Shown here: positions 3,947 through 16,937 of the stretch, one piece after another
How positions within the stretch are numbered: the first letter of the stretch is position 1
How the letters are laid out: every line of letters begins with the position of its first letter
Assembly: GCF_000760095.1 (NCBI RefSeq)
Contig: NZ_JNAR01000002.1
Span: 1-64,000, forward strand
Direction of reading: 5' to 3'
Length of the DNA stretch: 64,000 nucleotides
Source: Prochlorococcus marinus str. MIT 9401
Lineage (GTDB): Bacteria > Cyanobacteriota > Cyanobacteriia > PCC-6307 > Cyanobiaceae
The notes under the pieces: generated by a model
Databases searched by the model: none
The model's input: only the letters and a program-made list of their open reading frames with translations
What the model was told of the DNA's origin: nothing
Translations under genes and position numbers: made by a program

Positions 3947-5209
3947 CCCTTTTAATAAAAAAACAGGATTATTTGGTTCTAATCTTATTCCCTCAGCAAT
4001 ACTTAAGCTTTTATATGTCTGAATTAAATTTAAATTCGTTTTGAAATCTTTATATTCTAATGCCTCTTTCAATTCTTTAATTATTTGAATGTCAATTATC
4101 GGGATAACGATAATATCTCCAATACTCATAGCCTGAGCTAGTTTATTAATAATTAGAAGTTTAGTCTTTTTATCACATCCACCAATTATTAATCTATTAG
4201 GTTTTTCAAAAGAACCTAAACTTCTCCTATTCAAGGTATTATTTATATCTTCTTCAAGAATAAATCTTGGTTGAACCCCAAGCCTTTTTGAGTTTTCAAG
4301 TATTAATGCTTTTGAGCCAATCCTTTTATCGATACAAAACAAATCTAAATTAGGTCTTAATTTTAATGTTTCTAAACCAATTGACCCACAACCTGCTCCT
4401 ATATCCCAGATGACACCTTTTTTAGGGAGCTCTAGCTCAGCTAAAATTTGAATTCTTACCTCCCTTTTAGTAAATAAATTTGGTCTATCATCAAAAGTTT
4501 TAAAAATATGGTCACTCACTCCGAAAAGAGGGAGATTATTATTTGAGTAATTTTTCTTTGTTTTTGTAAGAACAACAATGTTCAAATTTAATATGTCAGA
4601 GGGTAATGGTTCTTTAAGATTTATTTTTCTTATATTTTCATTGTCGAAGCCTATTTCTTCACAGAGCCAAAAATCATAGAAGTCAATCAGATTTAATTCT
4701 GATAAGTTTTTTTTGATTATTTCTAAACTTTGCTGATTAGAGTCTGTAAGTATAGCTATATTTGTAGGCCTTTCTTTAAGAGCCTCAATTAACTTAGTCG
4801 AATCTCTGCCGTGAATACTTACATTAAATGTATCTTGCCACGGTATCTTTAACTTACTAAATGCTAATTGAATGCAAGTATTTGAGGGGTAGAAACTTAA
4901 TTCATCTTTTGAAAAATTTTCTAGTAGTATTCTCCCGATCCCAAACCAAAGTGGATCTCCTCTCGAAATTAAAATAACATCAGTTTTTTGAGATTTAAGC
5001 CAGTTAATTAGTGCGTTATTACTATTGCTTAAAAAAAATGATTTCTTTTTTAAATCATTTTCGCTCCATGATTTAATTTCTTTAAAATATGAATTGGGAA
5101 CTGCAATATTTTTTGTCTTTAAAAATAGATCTTTTAATTTGGGAGGCAAATCTCCAAATAAATATGAATTAATTCCTACTACATGAATTTTTCTATTAAC
5201 TTCGGCCAT
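3938..5209 (-). CDS. cobL: Precorrin-6Y C5,15-methyltransferase (decarboxylating)
   Basis: A roughly 423-residue two-domain enzyme of the cobalamin (pseudocobalamin) corrin pathway, which methylates precorrin-6Y at C5 and C15 and removes the acetate side chain on ring C. The N-terminal half is a tetrapyrrole methylase fold, with VILISRGDPLWFGIGRILLE as its glycine/proline cofactor loop. The C-terminal half is a Rossmann methyltransferase of the CbiT type, with the SAM motif VIWDIGAGCGSIGLETL near residues 267-283. Fused E and T domains are usual for CobL. A TTG codon immediately precedes ATG at 5209; I use the ATG. Convergent with nadK. Confidence 0.93.
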   Translation of the reverse strand: MAEVNRKIHVVGINSYLFGDLPPKLKDLFLKTKNIAVPNSYFKEIKSWSENDLKKKSFFLSNSNNALINWLKSQKTDVILISRGDPLWFGIGRILLENFSKDELSFYPSNTCIQLAFSKLKIPWQDTFNVSIHGRDSTKLIEALKERPTNIAILTDSNQQSLEIIKKNLSELNLIDFYDFWLCEEIGFDNENIRKINLKEPLPSDILNLNIVVLTKTKKNYSNNNLPLFGVSDHIFKTFDDRPNLFTKREVRIQILAELELPKKGVIWDIGAGCGSIGLETLKLRPNLDLFCIDKRIGSKALILENSKRLGVQPRFILEEDINNTLNRRSLGSFEKPNRLIIGGCDKKTKLLIINKLAQAMSIGDIIVIPIIDIQIIKELKEALEYKDFKTNLNLIQTYKSLSIAEGIRLEPNNPVFLLKGKK

Positions 5210-9135: not shown

Positions 9136-10062
9136 ATGCTTAAACCAAAAAAGCTTTTTAATAATAATTTTTTATCAAGCTTGGATTTATCTTCTGAAGA
9201 AGTCATACACATACTAAATATTGCTTTTAATTTAAAGAGTAAAAATCTAAATTTAGAATTCAATGACAAAGTTCTTGGTTTAATTTTTGACAAGTCATCT
9301 ACTCGTACGAGAGTAAGTTTTCAAGTAGCGATGTCAAGACTTGGAGGCACAACAATTGATTTAAATCCTACTACCTCGCAAATCGGTAGAGGTGAGCCAA
9401 TCAAAGATACAGCAAGGGTTCTAAGTAGATATTGCGATGTGCTTGCAATTCGAACTTTTAAACAATCTGATTTAGAGGAGTATGCTAAGTGGTCATCCAA
9501 ACCAGTAATTAATGCATTAACCGACCTAGAACATCCCTGCCAGGCTTTGGCCGATTTTATGACAATTAAAGAGGAATTTACTGACCTTGAGAATACAGTT
9601 TTGACATTTATTGGGGATGGGAATAATGTGGCAAATTCTCTTATCTTATGCGGGGCATTATTAGATGTTGAAGTTAGAATTGCATGTCCAAAAGGGTACG
9701 AACCAAATTCTTTATTAATTAGTAAAGCACTCGAGCTATATAAGAATAAGAACATGTTGCGAATAACAAATGATATTAATTCCGCTATCTCAGGTGCAAA
9801 TGTTATTTATACTGATGTTTGGTCTTCAATGGGAGAAGAAAATCAAAAGGAAGAAAAAGATAAAGACTTTAAAGGTTTTACTGTAAATAGTAATTTATTA
9901 TGCAAAGCAGATAAAGAGGCAATTGTTCTTCATTGTCTTCCTGCGTATAGATCTAAAGAGATAAGTGATGAAGTATTTGAATGTAAAAACAGTAGAATTT
10001 TTGATCAAGCGGAAAATAGAATGCATGTACAACAAGCACTTCTTTCTTGTCTTCTTACATAA
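9136..10062 (+). CDS. argF: Ornithine carbamoyltransferase
   Basis: A 308-residue enzyme of arginine synthesis joining carbamoyl phosphate and ornithine to give citrulline. The carbamoyl-phosphate motif SSTRTRVSFQVAM, the HPCQALADF motif, and the ornithine-site HCLPAYRSKEISDEVF near the C-terminus are all present, as is FIGDGNNVANSL at the domain boundary. Length is normal. ATG at 9136 begins 28 bp after the ftsH stop. The gene is followed by lexA on the same strand with its own likely promoter. Confidence 0.97.
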   Translation: MLKPKKLFNNNFLSSLDLSSEEVIHILNIAFNLKSKNLNLEFNDKVLGLIFDKSSTRTRVSFQVAMSRLGGTTIDLNPTTSQIGRGEPIKDTARVLSRYCDVLAIRTFKQSDLEEYAKWSSKPVINALTDLEHPCQALADFMTIKEEFTDLENTVLTFIGDGNNVANSLILCGALLDVEVRIACPKGYEPNSLLISKALELYKNKNMLRITNDINSAISGANVIYTDVWSSMGEENQKEEKDKDFKGFTVNSNLLCKADKEAIVLHCLPAYRSKEISDEVFECKNSRIFDQAENRMHVQQALLSCLLT

Positions 10063-10119: not shown

Positions 10120-10737
10120 ATGGTATTTTCTGAAGAAAATAATCTTACTGATGCTCAAAATGAGCTTTATGGTTGGATAAAGAATTATATGAAAACTTTT
10201 CAACATAGTCCATCAATTCGACAGATGATGAAAGCTATGGGTTTAAAATCTCCCGCTCCAATTCAAAGTCGATTGAGACATTTGCAAGAAAAAGGATACA
10301 TTTCATGGCAAGAAGGCAAAGCTAGAACTATGCAAATAGTTGATGAAATAATTGAGGGTGTGCCTATTATGGGTTCTGTTGCAGCAGGAGGTTTAATTGA
10401 AACTTATTCTGATGTGCAAGAAAACTTAGATATTTCTGATGTTTTAAGAAAGAAAAATGTATTTGCCCTAACGGTTAACGGAGATTCAATGATAGATGCT
10501 TGCATTGCTGATGGAGATATGGTTCTAATGGAGCCTATTAGTGATTCTTATTCTCTAAAGAATGGAACAATTGTTAGTGCAATGGTTCCAGGCTTGGGAA
10601 CTACTTTGAAATATTTTTTTAAAAGAAAAGGGAAAATATTTCTTGAGGCAGCAAATCCTGCTTATGATCCAATTGAGCTAAATGATGATGCAGTAATTTT
10701 TCAAGGAAAACTATTAGCCGTTTGGAGAAAAATTTAG
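10120..10737 (+). CDS. lexA: LexA repressor
   Basis: A 205-residue SOS-type repressor and self-cleaving serine protease. The N-terminal winged helix-turn-helix is visible as SPSIRQMMKAMGLKSPAPIQ followed by SRLRHLQEKGYI. The cleavage site Ala-Gly lies in GSVAAGGLIE, the catalytic serine in VNGDSMIDACIADGD, and the catalytic lysine in TTLKYFFKRKG, so the protein should be cleavable on RecA activation. ATG at 10120. It marks the end of the housekeeping block; all genes to its right concern surface polysaccharide. Confidence 0.96.
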   Translation: MVFSEENNLTDAQNELYGWIKNYMKTFQHSPSIRQMMKAMGLKSPAPIQSRLRHLQEKGYISWQEGKARTMQIVDEIIEGVPIMGSVAAGGLIETYSDVQENLDISDVLRKKNVFALTVNGDSMIDACIADGDMVLMEPISDSYSLKNGTIVSAMVPGLGTTLKYFFKRKGKIFLEAANPAYDPIELNDDAVIFQGKLLAVWRKI

Positions 10738-10867
10738 AGAAATATTTAAAAGTGATTGGTATTTATATTTTTCAAATAACTGGTATTTAAAATTAAAGTA
10801 CTAATTATGCTAATATTTTTGTATTAATTATTAGAAAATTTCAAGGATTTAAATCTATAAATATTAA

Positions 10868-12061
10868 ATGAATAAACAAATAAGTTCTATTAGATTAATC
10901 AGGCTTTTTAGATACTTAACTGTCTTATGTTTTTTTAATTTTCAAAATGTTATCCTTTCTGATGAATTTGTAGTCGATAATGAAAATGCTTCAAATAAAT
11001 CTAAAATTTTCTATCCAGAGAAACCAAATTTAAATGGAAACGAATATATTCTCTCAGGTGGGGATCTCATCAATATAGATTTTGCAGGTATTAAAGCTTA
11101 TAGTGGCCAATATTATGTAGATCCAGATGGCAATTTATTTTTACCTGATATAGGTATTTACAATGTAGAGGGTAAGACATTAAATGAATTAAGAAAGGAA
11201 TTATTAAATTCATATAGAGATTTTATTTTTGAACCTGAAATTACACTTCAAATCCAAAGCTATAGGCCAGTAAATGTATATTTAAGAGGTGAAGTAAGGA
11301 GTCCAGGACTGTACCGAGTAGAGTATGAAATTGTGAAAAAATCAAATACAACTTTCAACTCAACAAATGATTTTACTTCAAATAATTCATTTTCATCAAA
11401 TAGTCCATTTTCTTTAAATAGTCCATTAAGCAATGACAATCTAAAAAGCTATCAATTGCCGCCAACACTTTTTGATGTACTAACTCAAGCTAAAGGATTT
11501 ACTAAAAGTGCTGATTTATCTGAGATAAAAATAATAAGAAACAATACTATTTCACAAGGTGGAGGGAAAATATCTGCCAAAATAAATCTTTTATCTCTGC
11601 TTTTAGAAGGAGATCAATCAGTAAATATAAGAATTTTTGATGGTGATACTATTGTGGTTCCAAAGTCAGAAAATTTGTTGAAAGACCAAATTTTAGAAAT
11701 ACAGCGGAGTAATCTTAGCCCAGAATTTATATCAGTATTCATTACTGGTAATGTAAGAAAAGGCGGTGAAATATCTTTAAAAAAAGGTGCAAGTTTAAAC
11801 CATGCAATAGCTTCTACTGGTGGTAAAAAAATTCTTACAGGTAATATAGAATTTATAAGATTCAAGTATGACGGAGAGACAGATAAATCCCTCTTCAGAT
11901 ATGATTCAAATGCTCCAATTGCTTCCAAAAGAAACCCTATATTAATGGATGGTGATATTATCAATGTGAGAAGAACACCAATTGGTGCTGCAACAGAAAT
12001 TTTAGGTGAGATTTCTTCCCCAGTTTTAAGTGGTTATGGTCTCTACAATATTTTTAACTAA
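10868..12061 (+). CDS. Wza-type polysaccharide export protein with SLBB domains
   Basis: A 397-residue exported protein. An N-terminal hydrophobic stretch (about residues 13-32) looks like a signal sequence. Next comes a poly_export domain, YILSGGDLINIDFAG and YYVDPDGNLFLPDIG, then SLBB blocks with VNVYLRGEVRSPGLYRV and a second repeat near FISVFITGNVRKGGEISL. Family members form the outer-membrane channel for capsule or O-antigen-like polymers. I see no clear lipobox, so lipid anchoring is unproven. A serine/asparagine-rich stretch at about residues 160-193 interrupts the first SLBB region. It is two bases from the following wzz-like gene, so the two form an export operon opening the island. 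Confidence 0.88.
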   Translation: MNKQISSIRLIRLFRYLTVLCFFNFQNVILSDEFVVDNENASNKSKIFYPEKPNLNGNEYILSGGDLINIDFAGIKAYSGQYYVDPDGNLFLPDIGIYNVEGKTLNELRKELLNSYRDFIFEPEITLQIQSYRPVNVYLRGEVRSPGLYRVEYEIVKKSNTTFNSTNDFTSNNSFSSNSPFSLNSPLSNDNLKSYQLPPTLFDVLTQAKGFTKSADLSEIKIIRNNTISQGGGKISAKINLLSLLLEGDQSVNIRIFDGDTIVVPKSENLLKDQILEIQRSNLSPEFISVFITGNVRKGGEISLKKGASLNHAIASTGGKKILTGNIEFIRFKYDGETDKSLFRYDSNAPIASKRNPILMDGDIINVRRTPIGAATEILGEISSPVLSGYGLYNIFN

Positions 12062-12063
12062 AA

Positions 12064-13734
12064 ATGAATTTTAATGCTTCTAAAAATATGAATTCTAATT
12101 TCAATGAAGGCGAAGATGAAATAAATATACAAGAAATTGTTAATTACTTATTTAAGAGAAGATTTCTAGTTTCAGGAGTAACATTTTTTGTGACAGCTTT
12201 TGGAGTTGTTTTCTCTTTAATACAAAAACCTATTTATAAAGGTGAGTTTCAAATAGTCGTTGCTGGACAAAAATCAGAAAGTATTTTAAGTCAAGCAGCT
12301 GGGGCATTTGGAAATTTAACTGGAGGAGCTTTTGAATTACCTGGAGTTTCAAGTACAGAAATAAAAACGCAAGAATTCATATTAAAAAGTCCTTCCGTGC
12401 TAATGCCTGTTTATCAATTTTCAAAACAAAAATACAATGAAAGAGGAGAGAATAGTGAAAACCTAAGTTTTAAATCATGGAGAAAAAAATTCTTAAATAT
12501 CGAATTTGAGAAAAAAACTACAGTATTAAATATAACGTTTTTAGACAATGATAAAGATTTAATTTTAGAAGTACTAAATAAAATTTCCTCTAAGTATAAA
12601 GACTACTCTAGGAAGGACAGAATAAAATTATTAACAAAAGGAATATCTTATCTTGAAAGCCAACAAAAAATTTTGAAAAGCAATTCAATTCAATCTTTAA
12701 AAAATTTGAATGAATTTTCTATTGAAAATGGCTTGGGAGATATAGATGGATTTGTTGCGTTGGGGAATAATATCAATGGGTTTGGAGTTGAAAAATTTAA
12801 TAATTCTATATTAAATAAACTATCAGAATTAGAGGGTATCTCAAACCTTAATCTAAGAGCGGGAGGTGGAGCAATCCCAAATCTTAATTTAAGAACAGGC
12901 GGCGGTGGAACAGGAGCAGGACAACGTTTTACTTCTCAATTCTCATTATTAGAGCAATATGAATCACAATACACTGATTATTCTTCTAAGTTAAAACCAG
13001 AATCAGGATTGATGAAAGACTTAAAAGCTAAAATAGATAATCTTAGATCTTCATTAAAAAGACCAAATGAAATTTTAATTAAATATAGAGAATTAACATC
13101 AATATCTAGGCGAGATGAGGCTCTCCTCAATCAAATTGAGGATCAATTAGTATCTTATAAGTTGGAGCAAGCCAATAAGCAAGATCCCTGGGAATTAATT
13201 TCAGAACCAACAATTGCAGACTTACGAATCTATCCCAAAAGGAAAAGTATTGTAGCTTTATTTGGCTTTTCAGGTTTATTTTTAGGGATATCACTTGCAT
13301 ATTTAAGGGATAAGGCTAGAGGTTTAATTACAGGATTCAATGAAATTAAGCGTTTAATTGATCCAAAATTCTTAGATAATCTTTTTATAAGAAATAAATC
13401 TTTAAGTAATCAACTCCTCCAGAACTTTTTTAAAAATAATGAAGAATTTCAAAATGTTAAAAATGGAAATTGTATTTTAATGATTTCAAATCGTTCTTCA
13501 GCTATTGAAAATGAATTTTTAAATTATGTTTTGAAAAATAATGATAAATTAGTATCTATAGAATTTAGCGAAATCGATAAAATTAATAATTTTGATAATA
13601 TTGTCATTTTTATTAGCTCCCATGAAGTAAAAAGAAAAGATTTATTTTTATTGAATCAATACTACAAACTAAATCAAAGAAAAATAGTAGGGTGGTTTTA
13701 CCTTGATTGTTCGGAAAAAATTAACCTTTCATAA
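12064..13734 (+). CDS. Wzz/chain-length determinant protein (polysaccharide co-polymerase), no functional kinase domain
   Basis: A 556-residue inner-membrane protein with the Wzz topology: cytoplasmic INIQEIVNYLFKRR, first membrane helix about residues 35-53, a large periplasmic helical region, and a second helix near VALFGFSGLFLGISLAYL (about 397-415) preceded by a proline-containing RIYPKRKS segment. Such proteins set glycan chain length and work with a Wza channel. After the second helix about 135 residues follow where many homologues carry a tyrosine kinase, but I see no Walker A or B motif and no tyrosine cluster. A glycine-rich imperfect tandem repeat (SNLNLRAGGG, then PNLNLRTGGGG) lies around residues 260-285. 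Confidence 0.85.
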   Translation: MNFNASKNMNSNFNEGEDEINIQEIVNYLFKRRFLVSGVTFFVTAFGVVFSLIQKPIYKGEFQIVVAGQKSESILSQAAGAFGNLTGGAFELPGVSSTEIKTQEFILKSPSVLMPVYQFSKQKYNERGENSENLSFKSWRKKFLNIEFEKKTTVLNITFLDNDKDLILEVLNKISSKYKDYSRKDRIKLLTKGISYLESQQKILKSNSIQSLKNLNEFSIENGLGDIDGFVALGNNINGFGVEKFNNSILNKLSELEGISNLNLRAGGGAIPNLNLRTGGGGTGAGQRFTSQFSLLEQYESQYTDYSSKLKPESGLMKDLKAKIDNLRSSLKRPNEILIKYRELTSISRRDEALLNQIEDQLVSYKLEQANKQDPWELISEPTIADLRIYPKRKSIVALFGFSGLFLGISLAYLRDKARGLITGFNEIKRLIDPKFLDNLFIRNKSLSNQLLQNFFKNNEEFQNVKNGNCILMISNRSSAIENEFLNYVLKNNDKLVSIEFSEIDKINNFDNIVIFISSHEVKRKDLFLLNQYYKLNQRKIVGWFYLDCSEKINLS

Positions 13735-13772
13735 TCAAAGTTTATTTAATGTTTTAATACCTTTATCAAATA

Positions 13773-14588
13773 TTATTTTTGTGTAACTATTGTTGTTTCT
13801 GAGTAACCCTGACAATATGTAGTTGGTCCCTCTAATTTAATTATCCTATGGGTTTTCGAAATGCTCTCGAAGAATTTTTTATAGCGATCTCTAGATGAAT
13901 TATCAAAAACCAAAATTCCATTTTTATTGAGTTTTTTAAGTCCTTTTTCGGCACATTCGTTTCTACAATATCCATCAACCAATATTAAATCGAATAAACA
14001 GTCATAATCGTCTATTGCATTTACGTAATTTTCAAATGAATAACCTTTGAATTCTTTCCAAGCTGTTTCAAAAGTATTACTCGTTTTCAAATTAATTGGT
14101 TCTTTAACTAATAGTTCTATATTTGTTATATCTAATTCAGCTATTCTATTTTTAAGAGTATTTACCCATTGAGGATTATTTTCTACAGTAATAACTTTAT
14201 CACTTCTTTCAGAAAACCATAGAGTTGAAGTCCCTCCACCCCATTCAAAAACTTTCGGAGAAGTTGTTTGCAAAAGATGCCATTCTATAAAGTGTATAGC
14301 TTTTATATACATCCAAGGCAGAGGATCAGAATCATATATTGATTCCCATCCTCTTTCTGAATTTCTAAAAAATGATCTAATCCAATGAGAATATACATTG
14401 ATTTTACCTTCTTTATAGTCCAGATTATTTCTGAAAATCTCTCTTGAATAAAGATTATAAAGTCTCCAGTCAAATATTAATCCTATACCTTTTAAAAATT
14501 TCCATAATGGATAAATTTTTGTTTTCCTTAACTCTCCTCTATTATTTTTAAAGAAATTAAGATTCTCAATTATTTTAAATGGTTGCAT
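13773..14588 (-). CDS. Class I SAM-dependent methyltransferase-like protein
   Basis: A 271-residue cytosolic protein. The SAM-binding motif I is visible as VFEWGGGTSTLWFSE (residues about 113-127), followed by an acidic motif II in KVITVENNPQWV and a motif IV-like FDLILVDGYCRNECAEKG. The C-terminal LVFDNSSRDRYKKFF resembles the strand-5 region of the same fold. I infer methylation of a sugar or glycan; the substrate is unknown. It lies 9 bp downstream of the FkbM gene 14598-15518 on the same strand, so both are probably transcribed together, opposite to the wza/wzz pair. Confidence 0.75.
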   Translation of the reverse strand: MQPFKIIENLNFFKNNRGELRKTKIYPLWKFLKGIGLIFDWRLYNLYSREIFRNNLDYKEGKINVYSHWIRSFFRNSERGWESIYDSDPLPWMYIKAIHFIEWHLLQTTSPKVFEWGGGTSTLWFSERSDKVITVENNPQWVNTLKNRIAELDITNIELLVKEPINLKTSNTFETAWKEFKGYSFENYVNAIDDYDCLFDLILVDGYCRNECAEKGLKKLNKNGILVFDNSSRDRYKKFFESISKTHRIIKLEGPTTYCQGYSETTIVTQK

Positions 14589-14597
14589 TTTTAAAAA

Positions 14598-15518
14598 TTA
14601 TGTTTTTTTGTTTATAGTCTTGAGGTCTGATTTATAATCTGGACCCCATGGCATTCTCATAACTTTTTGTTCAATATCAGCTATTCTAAAATGAACTATA
14701 TTATTTAATAGTCTGCAAATTTTTTGTTTTCTTGAGAATAATTTATAATCTTTATCTATTCTTTCAAGATCTATCTTTTCATCTTTAGTACAGTAAATAT
14801 CATCATGTATTTGATTTTGTTTAGTAAACGAATTTTTAGACATAAAAATATTGTATCCACAAGATTCTAGAAAATCTTTAGTTATATCTAAAGTGTTAAA
14901 TTTTCCGCGTCTTACCTCTATAAATATATCTGGACTGAAATCTTTTATCAATTCTTTTGCACCTTCAAGTGATTTTACTTCATCACCCTCTATATCTATT
15001 TTTATAAAAATATTGGAATTGTGATTAAAAATTCCTTTGCAATAATTATCTAGTGTAGTTATCTTTGAAATTGTAGAAGTACCTGAATCATCTATACATA
15101 ATGATTTAGAAAAAGAATGTGAGCCTATTTTATTAGAGAAGAATAATTCAGCTTTTCCATGAAAATTACTTACTCCTAGTTTGTTAATTGTGGGAATTTT
15201 AATATTAGGCTTAAGATTTTTTTCTATACTAATTAATTTTTTTCTTTTTTCCAAAATTGAAAAATAATAAGGGTGCGGTTCAAAAGAATGACATTCGAAT
15301 CCTAGTCTGGATATAAAAAATGTAAACAAACCCATATTTGCTCCCAAATCTAAAAAAATTGGGTTTTTTTTATTCTCAACAAAAATTTTCGATGCTTTAT
15401 AGAAGTTAAAAGGCATTTTTCTAATCCTCATCCTTACTATATTCGCAGGGAGCATTTCAATAAAGGAAAATAAAATGAATCTGTAATAACTTGAAAATTG
15501 AATAATTTTTAAAAACAT
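14598..15518 (-). CDS. FkbM family methyltransferase
   Basis: A 306-residue protein with the FkbM pattern: PIFLDLGANMGLFTFFISR (SAM motif I, about residues 53-71), FECHSFEPHPYYFSIL (motif II), and FIKIDIEGDEVKSLEGA, the IDIEGxE block that defines the family. FkbM-type enzymes methylate hydroxyls on sugars or glycans. A C-terminal extension of about 80 residues follows the core and I do not recognise it. The start at 15518 (ATG) is 31 bp from the divergent tRNA-Ala. Confidence 0.88.
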   Translation of the reverse strand: MFLKIIQFSSYYRFILFSFIEMLPANIVRMRIRKMPFNFYKASKIFVENKKNPIFLDLGANMGLFTFFISRLGFECHSFEPHPYYFSILEKRKKLISIEKNLKPNIKIPTINKLGVSNFHGKAELFFSNKIGSHSFSKSLCIDDSGTSTISKITTLDNYCKGIFNHNSNIFIKIDIEGDEVKSLEGAKELIKDFSPDIFIEVRRGKFNTLDITKDFLESCGYNIFMSKNSFTKQNQIHDDIYCTKDEKIDLERIDKDYKLFSRKQKICRLLNNIVHFRIADIEQKVMRMPWGPDYKSDLKTINKKT

Positions 15519-15549
15519 ACTTTATTTGCTAATATTTATTACTTAGTTA

Positions 15550-15622
15550 GGGGCCATAGCTCAGTTGGTAGAGCACCTGCATGGCATGCAGGGGGTCAGC
15601 GGTTCGAGTCCGCTTGGCTCCA
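15550..15622 (+). tRNA. tRNA-Ala (anticodon GGC)
   Basis: A 73-nt cloverleaf. The acceptor stem pairs GGGGCCA with TGGCTCC (one G-U pair). The anticodon stem is CCTGC/GCAGG around loop ATGGCAT, giving anticodon GGC. The T arm is AGCGG-TTCGAGT-CCGCT. The discriminator base is A; CCA is not encoded (TCA follows). A degenerate copy of this gene lies 1.25 kb downstream. Confidence 0.96.
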
Positions 15623-15894
15623 TCAGGATTTTCGCAAGTAATACCAATTAGTTTGAACGAATATATACAGGAACAAACCATTTATTTTAGTGTATCAATG
15701 TGTATTAATATGTGTTCTCTGCGAGCAACTCTGCGAGCCACATCCCTTGCAAATAGTTAGAAGGGGTATAAGGGGCTAAGTAAAAAGATATTGAGAAAAA
15801 ACTACATAAAAAAGATATGATTAATTTTAGGATATGATTACTTTAATTAAATTTAAAAATTCTCTTAATCCTTCAATAACCTACGATAAATTAT
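15623..15894. other. Noncoding spacer downstream of tRNA-Ala
   Basis: The 272 bp between the tRNA and the next gene contain no convincing ORF. The only structured element is the pair of 12-bp direct repeats at 15717-15740. A GC-richer stretch at about 15740-15780 contrasts with the AT-rich remainder. I looked for remnants of an integrase on both strands and did not find a persuasive one. Confidence 0.6.
15717..15740. repeat. Tandem pair of 12-bp direct repeats (left copy)
   Basis: CTCTGCGAGCAA (15717-15728) is followed immediately by CTCTGCGAGCCA (15729-15740), 11 of 12 bases identical. A diverged pair of the same repeat is at 16822-16845, on the other side of the FkbM gene. Paired short repeats near a tRNA resemble recombinase arm-binding sites, but that is inference. 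Confidence 0.7.
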
Positions 15895-16728
15895 ATGTTA
15901 AAGAACTCTCTTAAAAATTTCTTAAAAAGGATAAAACTTTTACCTTTTGCCAAAAAAATAAAGAGACTTTTTTTTACAAAAAAGCATCCATTACAAAATT
16001 TTAAAAATGCTAAGTTAGACAATATTATCACTCTAGGAACTGAATATGGTGGTTGGAGTTTTGTTGACGAGGATAACTTAAAGAATTGTACAATAATAAG
16101 TGCTGGTCTTGGAGAGGATGCTTCATTTGATATAGAATTTGCTTCAAAATATGATGCAAGAATAATTATTGTTGATCCAACTCCTCGAGCTATAAAACAC
16201 TACGATGAAATAATTAATTCACTTGGAAATTCATCAAAAACTGAATATTTGGAAGGTGGAAAACAACCAATAAATTCATATAACCTCATAAATTTAAAAA
16301 AAGAAAATCTTATCCTTTTAAAAAAGGCCTTATGGAATAAAAATGAGAAACTAAGATTTTTCTCTCCTCCTAACCCAGAACATGTCTCACATTCAATAAT
16401 AAATTATCAAAATCAATATAAGGAAAATACAAACTTTATTGAAGTTGATGCTATTACTATTGATAAATTGTTGGATCAATTTAATTTGAATAAAGATGAT
16501 ATACCCCTCATTAAACTTGACATAGAAGGAGCTGAAATAGAGTTTTTAATTGATTGCTTTAGTAAAGGTTTTAGACCAAGACAAATTTTAGTCGAATTTG
16601 ATGAACTTAATGTTCCGTCGAGAAAGGGTTTTGAAAGGGTTACAGAAATTAATCAAATATTGATAAACAATAATTATCAATTAATAAAAACAGATGGCAA
16701 AGCTGATTTTCTTTACTTAAAGAATTAA
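15895..16728 (+). CDS. FkbM family methyltransferase carried between the two tRNA-Ala copies
   Basis: A 277-residue SAM-dependent methyltransferase-like protein. After a basic N-terminus, TIISAGLGEDASFDIEF (about residues 65-81) stands where motif I is expected, followed by IIIVDPTPRAIKHYDEI, and the family-defining IKLDIEGAEIEFLID appears near residue 205. Motif I is not a standard GxGxG, which is seen in some FkbM relatives. ATG at 15895. It is the only gene in the 1.3-kb interval flanked by the intact and degenerate tRNA-Ala and the 12-bp repeats, so it may have arrived as a single-gene cargo. Likely role: methylation of a surface glycan. Confidence 0.82.
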   Translation: MLKNSLKNFLKRIKLLPFAKKIKRLFFTKKHPLQNFKNAKLDNIITLGTEYGGWSFVDEDNLKNCTIISAGLGEDASFDIEFASKYDARIIIVDPTPRAIKHYDEIINSLGNSSKTEYLEGGKQPINSYNLINLKKENLILLKKALWNKNEKLRFFSPPNPEHVSHSIINYQNQYKENTNFIEVDAITIDKLLDQFNLNKDDIPLIKLDIEGAEIEFLIDCFSKGFRPRQILVEFDELNVPSRKGFERVTEINQILINNNYQLIKTDGKADFLYLKN

Positions 16729-16759
16729 TACTTTTACATCAAAAATTAAATATTAATTC

Positions 16760-16810
16760 AGTAATTTATTAATTTATAAATTTATTAATTTATTAATTTA
16801 TTAATATTTA
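16760..16810. repeat. AT-only low-complexity repeat
   Basis: About six imperfect copies of an AATTTATT-like octamer run across this stretch, immediately after the FkbM gene and before the right-hand 12-bp repeats. It is probably slippage-generated; no function is evident. Confidence 0.6.
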
Positions 16811-16821
16811 AATATTGTTAT

Positions 16822-16845
16822 CTGTGCGAGTAGCCCTGCGAGCAA
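16822..16845. repeat. Tandem pair of 12-bp direct repeats (right copy)
   Basis: CTGTGCGAGTAG (16822-16833) and CCCTGCGAGCAA (16834-16845) match the left-copy unit CTCTGCGAGCAA at 9 and 11 of 12 positions. The 12-bp periodicity is preserved. The pair lies 27 bp before the degenerate tRNA-Ala. Confidence 0.6.
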
Positions 16846-16872
16846 AATGCTAAAAACACCTGCAAAACCTAG

Positions 16873-16937
16873 TTATTGCTTAGTTGGTCATCTGCATGAC
16901 ATGGAGGGGGACAGCGGTTCGAGTCCACTTGGCTCCA
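16873..16937 (+). pseudogene. Degenerate tRNA-Ala copy
   Basis: The last 46 bases (16892-16937) match the last 46 of the intact tRNA-Ala at 42 positions, and weaker similarity continues through the D loop (TTAGTTGGT). The 5' acceptor strand is absent, three bases of the D arm are missing, one anticodon-stem pair and one T-stem pair are broken, and the anticodon reads GAC. It should not fold as a working tRNA. It looks like a tRNA duplicate or attachment-site scar. Confidence 0.85.

Follow-up and report, generated by a model that had tools for sequence, protein, structure and literature searches.

A probable non-autonomous integrative element with one methyltransferase gene at tRNA-Ala(GGC) of Prochlorococcus marinus MIT 9401

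The tRNA-Ala locus and its displaced 3′ end

The window, i.e. the whole 64-kb stretch of P. marinus MIT 9401 DNA analysed here, carries an intact tRNA-Ala(GGC) gene within a polysaccharide island, followed on the same strand by one gene and a second, incomplete tRNA-Ala copy (Table 1). Both had been pointed out in an earlier note on this DNA. The copy indeed repeats the last 46 nt of tRNA-Ala(GGC) at 16892–16937 in the same orientation with 4 mismatches, and the gene between the two copies is a single intact ORF of 277 aa assigned to Methyltransf_21/FkbM. A local alignment of tRNA positions 7–73 with 16875–16937 showed 84% identity with one 4-nt deletion and reached a score of 80, whereas no other place in the window, on either strand, exceeded 22. 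The displaced copy, in which the anticodon GGC is changed to GAC, was called as a tRNA by neither ARAGORN nor Rfam. Rfam matches to HPnc0260 did not reach the gathering score and were regarded as chance. In the own genome (1.67 Mb, 17 contigs), the sole other full-length tRNA-Ala match (86%) is located on contig 3.

Table 1. Coordinates of the features at the tRNA-Ala(GGC) locus of the window
Feature	Position	Strand	Basis or remark
Intact tRNA-Ala(GGC)	15550..15622	+	Called by both ARAGORN and Rfam
Whole integrase-less unit, 1315 bp	15623..16937	+	Limits given by tRNA ends and arms
Left arm of element	15623..15775	+	Conserved in several other genomes, immediately following intact tRNA-Ala
Left paired arm sites, TCTGCGAGC-AAC-TCTGCGAGC	15718..15738	+	12-nt period
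Cargo gene, FkbM-type methyltransferase, 277 aa, intact ORF	15895..16728	+	Methyltransf_21/FkbM, E 9.5e-11
Right arm sites, TGTGCGAGT-AGC-CCTGCGAGC	16823..16843	+	12-nt period
Conserved right end including D-arm-like stretch CTAGTTATTGCTTAGTTGGTCAT	16844..16891	+	Right-arm query matches
Displaced tRNA-Ala 3′ end, positions 28–73, 4 mismatches (putative attR)	16892..16937	+	Alignment

Past the tRNA 3′ end, weak matching was found for only ~8 nt and the similarity stops short of the flank; the continuation into flanking DNA that the earlier note had named as an argument against integration was not seen. The same note had traced weaker similarity through the D arm. The alignment does reach tRNA position 7, but the D-arm-like stretch 16875–16891 with its 4-nt deletion most likely belongs to the element and is not simply decayed tRNA, because a near-identical TTATAGCTTAGTTGGTGAT forms the right end of similar elements elsewhere. 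The tRNA part that is truly duplicated begins at position 28 and comprises 46 nt.

The FkbM methyltransferase probably acts in surface polysaccharide. At the threshold used, homologues were obtained from only two other genomes. The homologue in G118 shares 82% amino acid identity at a dN/dS of 0.20, and the cargo gene is accordingly under selection. The DNA match to G118 spans positions 159–1165 of the unit, both arms being excluded, and the G118 copy has in its vicinity a 3′ fragment similar to tRNA-Pro (85% over 47 nt). Its position suggests that cargo may be exchanged between elements of different tRNAs.

tRNA-Ala fragments and element ends in relatives

For comparison, 151 genomes of the genus were used for tRNA-Ala and 266 genomes for the flank and integrase searches; the panel includes P. 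marinus MIT 9302 (G143), MIT 9201 (G092), SCGC AAA795-I06 (G033), AG-321-E21 (G021) and AG-355-A09 (G209). A tRNA-Ala-type match was present in 147 of the 151 genomes, mostly as an intact GGC gene. Most tRNA-Ala loci have nothing tRNA-like downstream, and a minority carries one to three 3′ fragments at 0.1 to 8.6 kb from the intact gene, with differing genes in between; a copy and gene common to all relatives, which the earlier note had held against integration, were not encountered. Behind the gene at 62 intact tRNA-Ala loci of the genus lie 36 such fragments. Position 28 of the tRNA is the start of 15 of them, and position 26, 27 or 29 that of another 7; earlier starts at positions 6–22 mostly belong to units with an element-borne D-arm-like stretch before the core, as in the window.

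About twenty relatives possess tiny integrase-less elements with matching ends and unrelated genes at this same tRNA-Ala site. Most units contain one to a few genes and no integrase; they measure 0.7–4.5 kb with cargo and 125–208 bp without genes, and compact units of 1.0–1.5 kb with a kept right end and unrelated single genes occur in many genomes. FkbM methyltransferases are the cargo in the window and in L070, L106, L110, L054 and L047. Other units carry, among others, an AT3-SGNH acyltransferase, PhyH, a trypsin-like protease, a formyltransferase with GT4, a sulfotransferase-like protein, a GDSL esterase or a nitroreductase. The cargo-only remnant considered in the earlier note thus stands insofar as an integrase is lacking; it is no one-off, since defined, arm-bearing mini-elements of this kind recur as a class.

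Some genomes have two or three units in an array at tRNA-Ala, and tandem accretion was found in L048, L074, L110, L111 and L071, with none in the window itself. The sequence behind a fragment matches, at offset 0, the sequence behind the intact tRNA elsewhere, namely from L074 to L108 (91% over 134 nt), from L111 to L202 (90.5% over 201 nt) and from L110 to the window (83.6% over 116 nt). Insertions that followed one another at a single site would leave this pattern. Also, intact and displaced 3′ halves often bear different T-stem alleles, each internally paired, such as GGGG/CCCC (intact) versus GCGG/CCGC (displaced) in MIT 9302, as would be expected if every insertion brought a tRNA 3′ half of its own. 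An empty site for the exact window insertion was not found among the 266 genomes and cannot be demonstrated with them, because the downstream flank is present in no other of these genomes, save weakly in G052; nor was this flank found beside a tRNA in other genomes.

The ends of the unit are shared as well. The left arm has 77–81% identity over 130–145 nt in L036 and L058, and in L036 and L201 left-arm sequence is followed by integrase starts. The first left site CTGCGAGC lies 96 nt after the tRNA, and the first right arm site precedes the tRNA core by 68 nt; in other genomes, units with unrelated cargo are delimited by 9-bp repeat arms placed at these distances too. Behind the intact tRNA, the consensus left end reads TCTCTGCGAGC AAC TCTGCGAGC, then CCCTTGCAAATAGG; upstream of the fragments, the consensus right end reads TCTGCGAGC AGC CCTGCGAGC AAAATGCCGAAAACACCTGCAAAACCTAGTTATAGCTTAGTTGGTGAT. 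Identity to the right-arm query was 93% in the window, 100% in G021, 99% in G143 and 96% in G209. Genus-wide, the right-end query matched in 23 of 249 genomes, and matches of at least 90% over at least 63 nt were obtained in six genomes, the own genome counted, with differing cargo.

Paired CTGCnnnY units were scored in 31 elements with a cut-off of 16.5. Among the 31 left ends, 18 passed (null 0.1%), of which 16 have the pair at +92 to +97; among the 31 right ends, 21 passed (null 0.3%), with the pair at 66–69 or 78–81 nt before the core. The arm motif had been defined on these very data, and the right-arm values are partly ascertained, since the right-arm query had served to find many of the elements. 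The left ends and the agreement between both ends are therefore the cleaner evidence: of the 14 elements scoring at both ends, 13 have the same triplet in the left and the right arm, which was equalled in 0 of 100,000 permutations that ignore shared ancestry. The exception is L210, whose 7.9-kb interval may be composite. Several elements, e.g. L070 and L113, have no recognisable left arm. The paired arm sites are probable integrase arm-binding sites.

These data bear on the old tRNA duplication that the earlier note had offered as an alternative. Following a segmental or tandem duplication of tRNA-Ala, the FkbM gene would have arrived later by homologous recombination, and the locus does lie within a polysaccharide island, where gene turnover by this route is common. 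In many genomes, however, the fragments begin at a sharply defined position inside the tRNA and lack the tRNA 5′ end, conserved element ends stand upstream of them, and T-stem alleles are swapped. The pattern among the relatives decides clearly for integration; in view of the fragment boundaries and the T-stem alleles, a tandem duplication was rejected as largely refuted, and we consider this origin very improbable.

Integrases and probable mode of insertion

In agreement with the earlier note, in which no integrase was visible, the 1315-bp unit contains no integrase match; beyond the left arm of the window no integrase remnant was found either, the score there being equal to that of shuffled sequences. 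A search of the own genome for a cognate integrase, as the note had proposed, yielded none. The only candidates were a core 389-aa recombinase, which adjoins a cobalamin adenosyltransferase-like gene, and one broken phage-type integrase (L076, G000:C13:95204-95671) with an internal stop, located shortly downstream of two adjacent tRNA genes.

Among the relatives, the left arm of the window is shared by units with integrase starts in G111, G134 and G247: behind arms of its class, G111 has an integrase start of 82 codons, and G134, G247 and G051 have broken integrase remnants. Full-length relatives of that integrase lie behind a tRNA-Arg-like 5′ half, with arms TGAGTGACC-AAC-TGAGTGACC in the same layout. 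An intact integrase of the window's arm type was found at tRNA-Ala in none of the 266 genomes. A complete tRNA-Ala element is present in G244 (L157). It spans 6.8 kb with matched CTC arms. Its 429-aa recombinase, located 136 nt behind the tRNA, scored as a single protein just under the Pfam cut-off (25.4 vs 27.1 bits); one HTH and one AAA protein are also encoded. By Pfam, L157 has no relaxase or conjugation domain, and several of its proteins match nothing. For integrase P0001, which goes with CTC arms, no relatives were confirmed in IMG/VR and no solved structure was obtained at E 0.01; a search of IMG/VR for the arms by exact pattern gave no match.

Taken with the varied copies in the relatives, the fixed-distance arms and the stacking at offset 0, which support the integration at the tRNA 3′ end proposed in the earlier note, 15623–16937 is very probably an integrative element, non-autonomous and with a single gene, that was inserted into tRNA-Ala(GGC) by site-specific recombination of the tyrosine-recombinase type. 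The crossover is placed in the anticodon stem-loop, because 3′ fragments begin at position 28 and position 42 is the last one kept in the 5′ fragment of G088; it would have occurred within tRNA positions 28–42, at the palindrome CTGCATGGCATGCAG. The element would have supplied a replacement tRNA 3′ half, and the old half of the host would have moved to the far end. The intact tRNA-Ala may accordingly be seen as a chimera of a host 5′ half and an element-supplied 3′ half (attL), and 16892–16937 as the former host 3′ half (attR). Since paired 9-bp arms stand at fixed distances, the unit could be recognised by an integrase provided in trans or since lost. Most likely it was inserted by such an enzyme, to which the arms would bind, and arose by internal deletion of an integrase-bearing, tycheposon-like tRNA-Ala element that left one cargo gene. 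The window copy is probably no longer able to excise precisely, as the displaced anticodon core GAC mismatches GGC in the exchange region.

Plain decay would leave a similar picture: a full tycheposon integrated once and lost its integrase and other genes in place, and the small form was never mobile. Broken or truncated integrases beside tRNA-Ala in several genomes fit this course, among them L115 (G051), where only the first 20 integrase codons remain after the left arm. It accounts less well for the many compact units of 1.0–1.5 kb with a kept right end and unrelated single genes, for right arms 90–100% identical to the query in six genomes despite differing cargo, and for the window, which has no integrase remnant past the arm. 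Any single unit may have decayed in place; for the small form in general we take this course to be possible without favouring it.

Full-length divergent integrases were detected ~136–148 nt upstream of tRNA-Ala in seven genomes (G050, G067, G088, G100, G106, G111 and G118). In G088 (L214, positions on the strand read), a tRNA-Ala 5′ half (positions 1–42) is located at 4742–4783, 69 nt after lexA, and the intact tRNA-Ala at 11113–11185, 6.4 kb from the 5′ half, with the divergent integrase just upstream; this is an insertion on the 5′ side of tRNA-Ala. Some of the seven genomes have mini-units downstream and arrays of two or three units do occur, as if a resident integrase divergent from tRNA-Ala stacked single-gene cassettes, newest first, in the manner of an integron. 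The integrase of G088 is, however, part of a separate 6.4-kb insertion bounded by the tRNA 5′ half, the window has no divergent integrase, and most mini-unit genomes gave no match at that place, which makes such capture unlikely. The seemingly ancestral lexA–tRNA-Ala spacing is 69 nt (L058, L059, L044, L038). In the window, lexA and tRNA-Ala are 4.8 kb apart (10737–15550), with polysaccharide export-type and other genes between them, and a search of this interval revealed no remnant of a tRNA 5′ half.

Comparison with known systems and significance

Tycheposons of Prochlorococcus were reportedly described by Hackl et al. in 2023. In the parts of the literature consulted, they are elements of 4–200 kb with a recombinase (PMC10872708; further background in PMC10187409). 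The tRNA-Ala units resemble them in the insertion at a tRNA gene, the cargo genes, the remodelling of genomic islands, the tyrosine recombinase beside the tRNA in complete relatives and the displaced tRNA part at the far end, which is present in the window unit. Unlike tycheposons, the window unit has 1315 bp, a single FkbM ORF and no recombinase, and the hallmark genes for replication and packaging are absent.

Streptococcal CIMEs and microCIMEs have kept their recombination sites, lost the recombination genes and occur in tandem at one att site; CIMEs measure 1.2–13 kb with cargo, and the microCIMEs of Streptococcus salivarius are gene-less with 130–220 bp (PMC7563491). Similarly, the window unit retains both putative att sites, with 4 mismatches in the attR core, and no recombination genes, and the tRNA-Ala units come with cargo or gene-less in the sizes given above. 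Two gene-less units ending in a tRNA-Ala fragment, comparable to microCIMEs, are located at 12545–12752 of L110 (208 bp, with both arms) and at 9142–9266 of L048 (125 bp), each on the strand read. A possible difference is that CIMEs derive from conjugative or mobilizable elements, whereas no conjugation gene was recognised by Pfam in L157; the matched arm-site variants are an added detail of the tRNA-Ala units.

In the additive flexible genomic islands of Alteromonas, cassettes follow a conserved tRNA whose 3′ end is repeated (PMC4119200, as excerpted), and the tRNA-Lys cassettes of Methylopumilus are given in the consulted part of PMC10872708 with 330 bp to 42 kb and 1–63 genes. As far as these excerpts go, both share with the tRNA-Ala units the addition of cassettes behind a conserved tRNA whose 3′ end is repeated; they describe tRNA-end repeats and do not mention conserved ends or arm sites. 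In integrons, a tyrosine recombinase stacks cassettes of one gene each at a single site. The tRNA-Ala units are likewise stacked single-gene units, but would recombine at the anticodon stem-loop of a tRNA and have arms at both ends. As far as checked, arm-bearing, integrase-less tRNA-Ala units with one gene and matched arm variants are new, and the original tycheposon description may cover some of them.

Prochlorococcus is the most abundant photosynthetic organism, and these ocean cyanobacteria appear to swap single genes via non-autonomous mini-elements. Tentatively, one might go further and see a single-gene cassette system, in which units of two arm sites, a tRNA 3′ half and one gene would be moved in trans by the integrases of larger tycheposons, the GAG, GAC, CAC and CTC arm variants would represent separate specificities, and surface-modification genes would circulate much like integron cassettes. 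If units with defined ends do move in trans, they provide a route for one-gene changes in genomic islands; the cargo often codes for surface-modifying enzymes and could alter recognition by phages. The arm sites offer a sequence signature for finding units even without an integrase, and matched arm variants predict which integrase moves which unit.

A further integrase family of 424–425 aa is located beside tRNA-Pro-like sequence in L155, L159 and L163 (G050, G143 and G212), the L163 integrase having 389 aa as called. Since several further tRNA-Pro-like fragments cluster near these integrases, a similar array at another tRNA is suggested.
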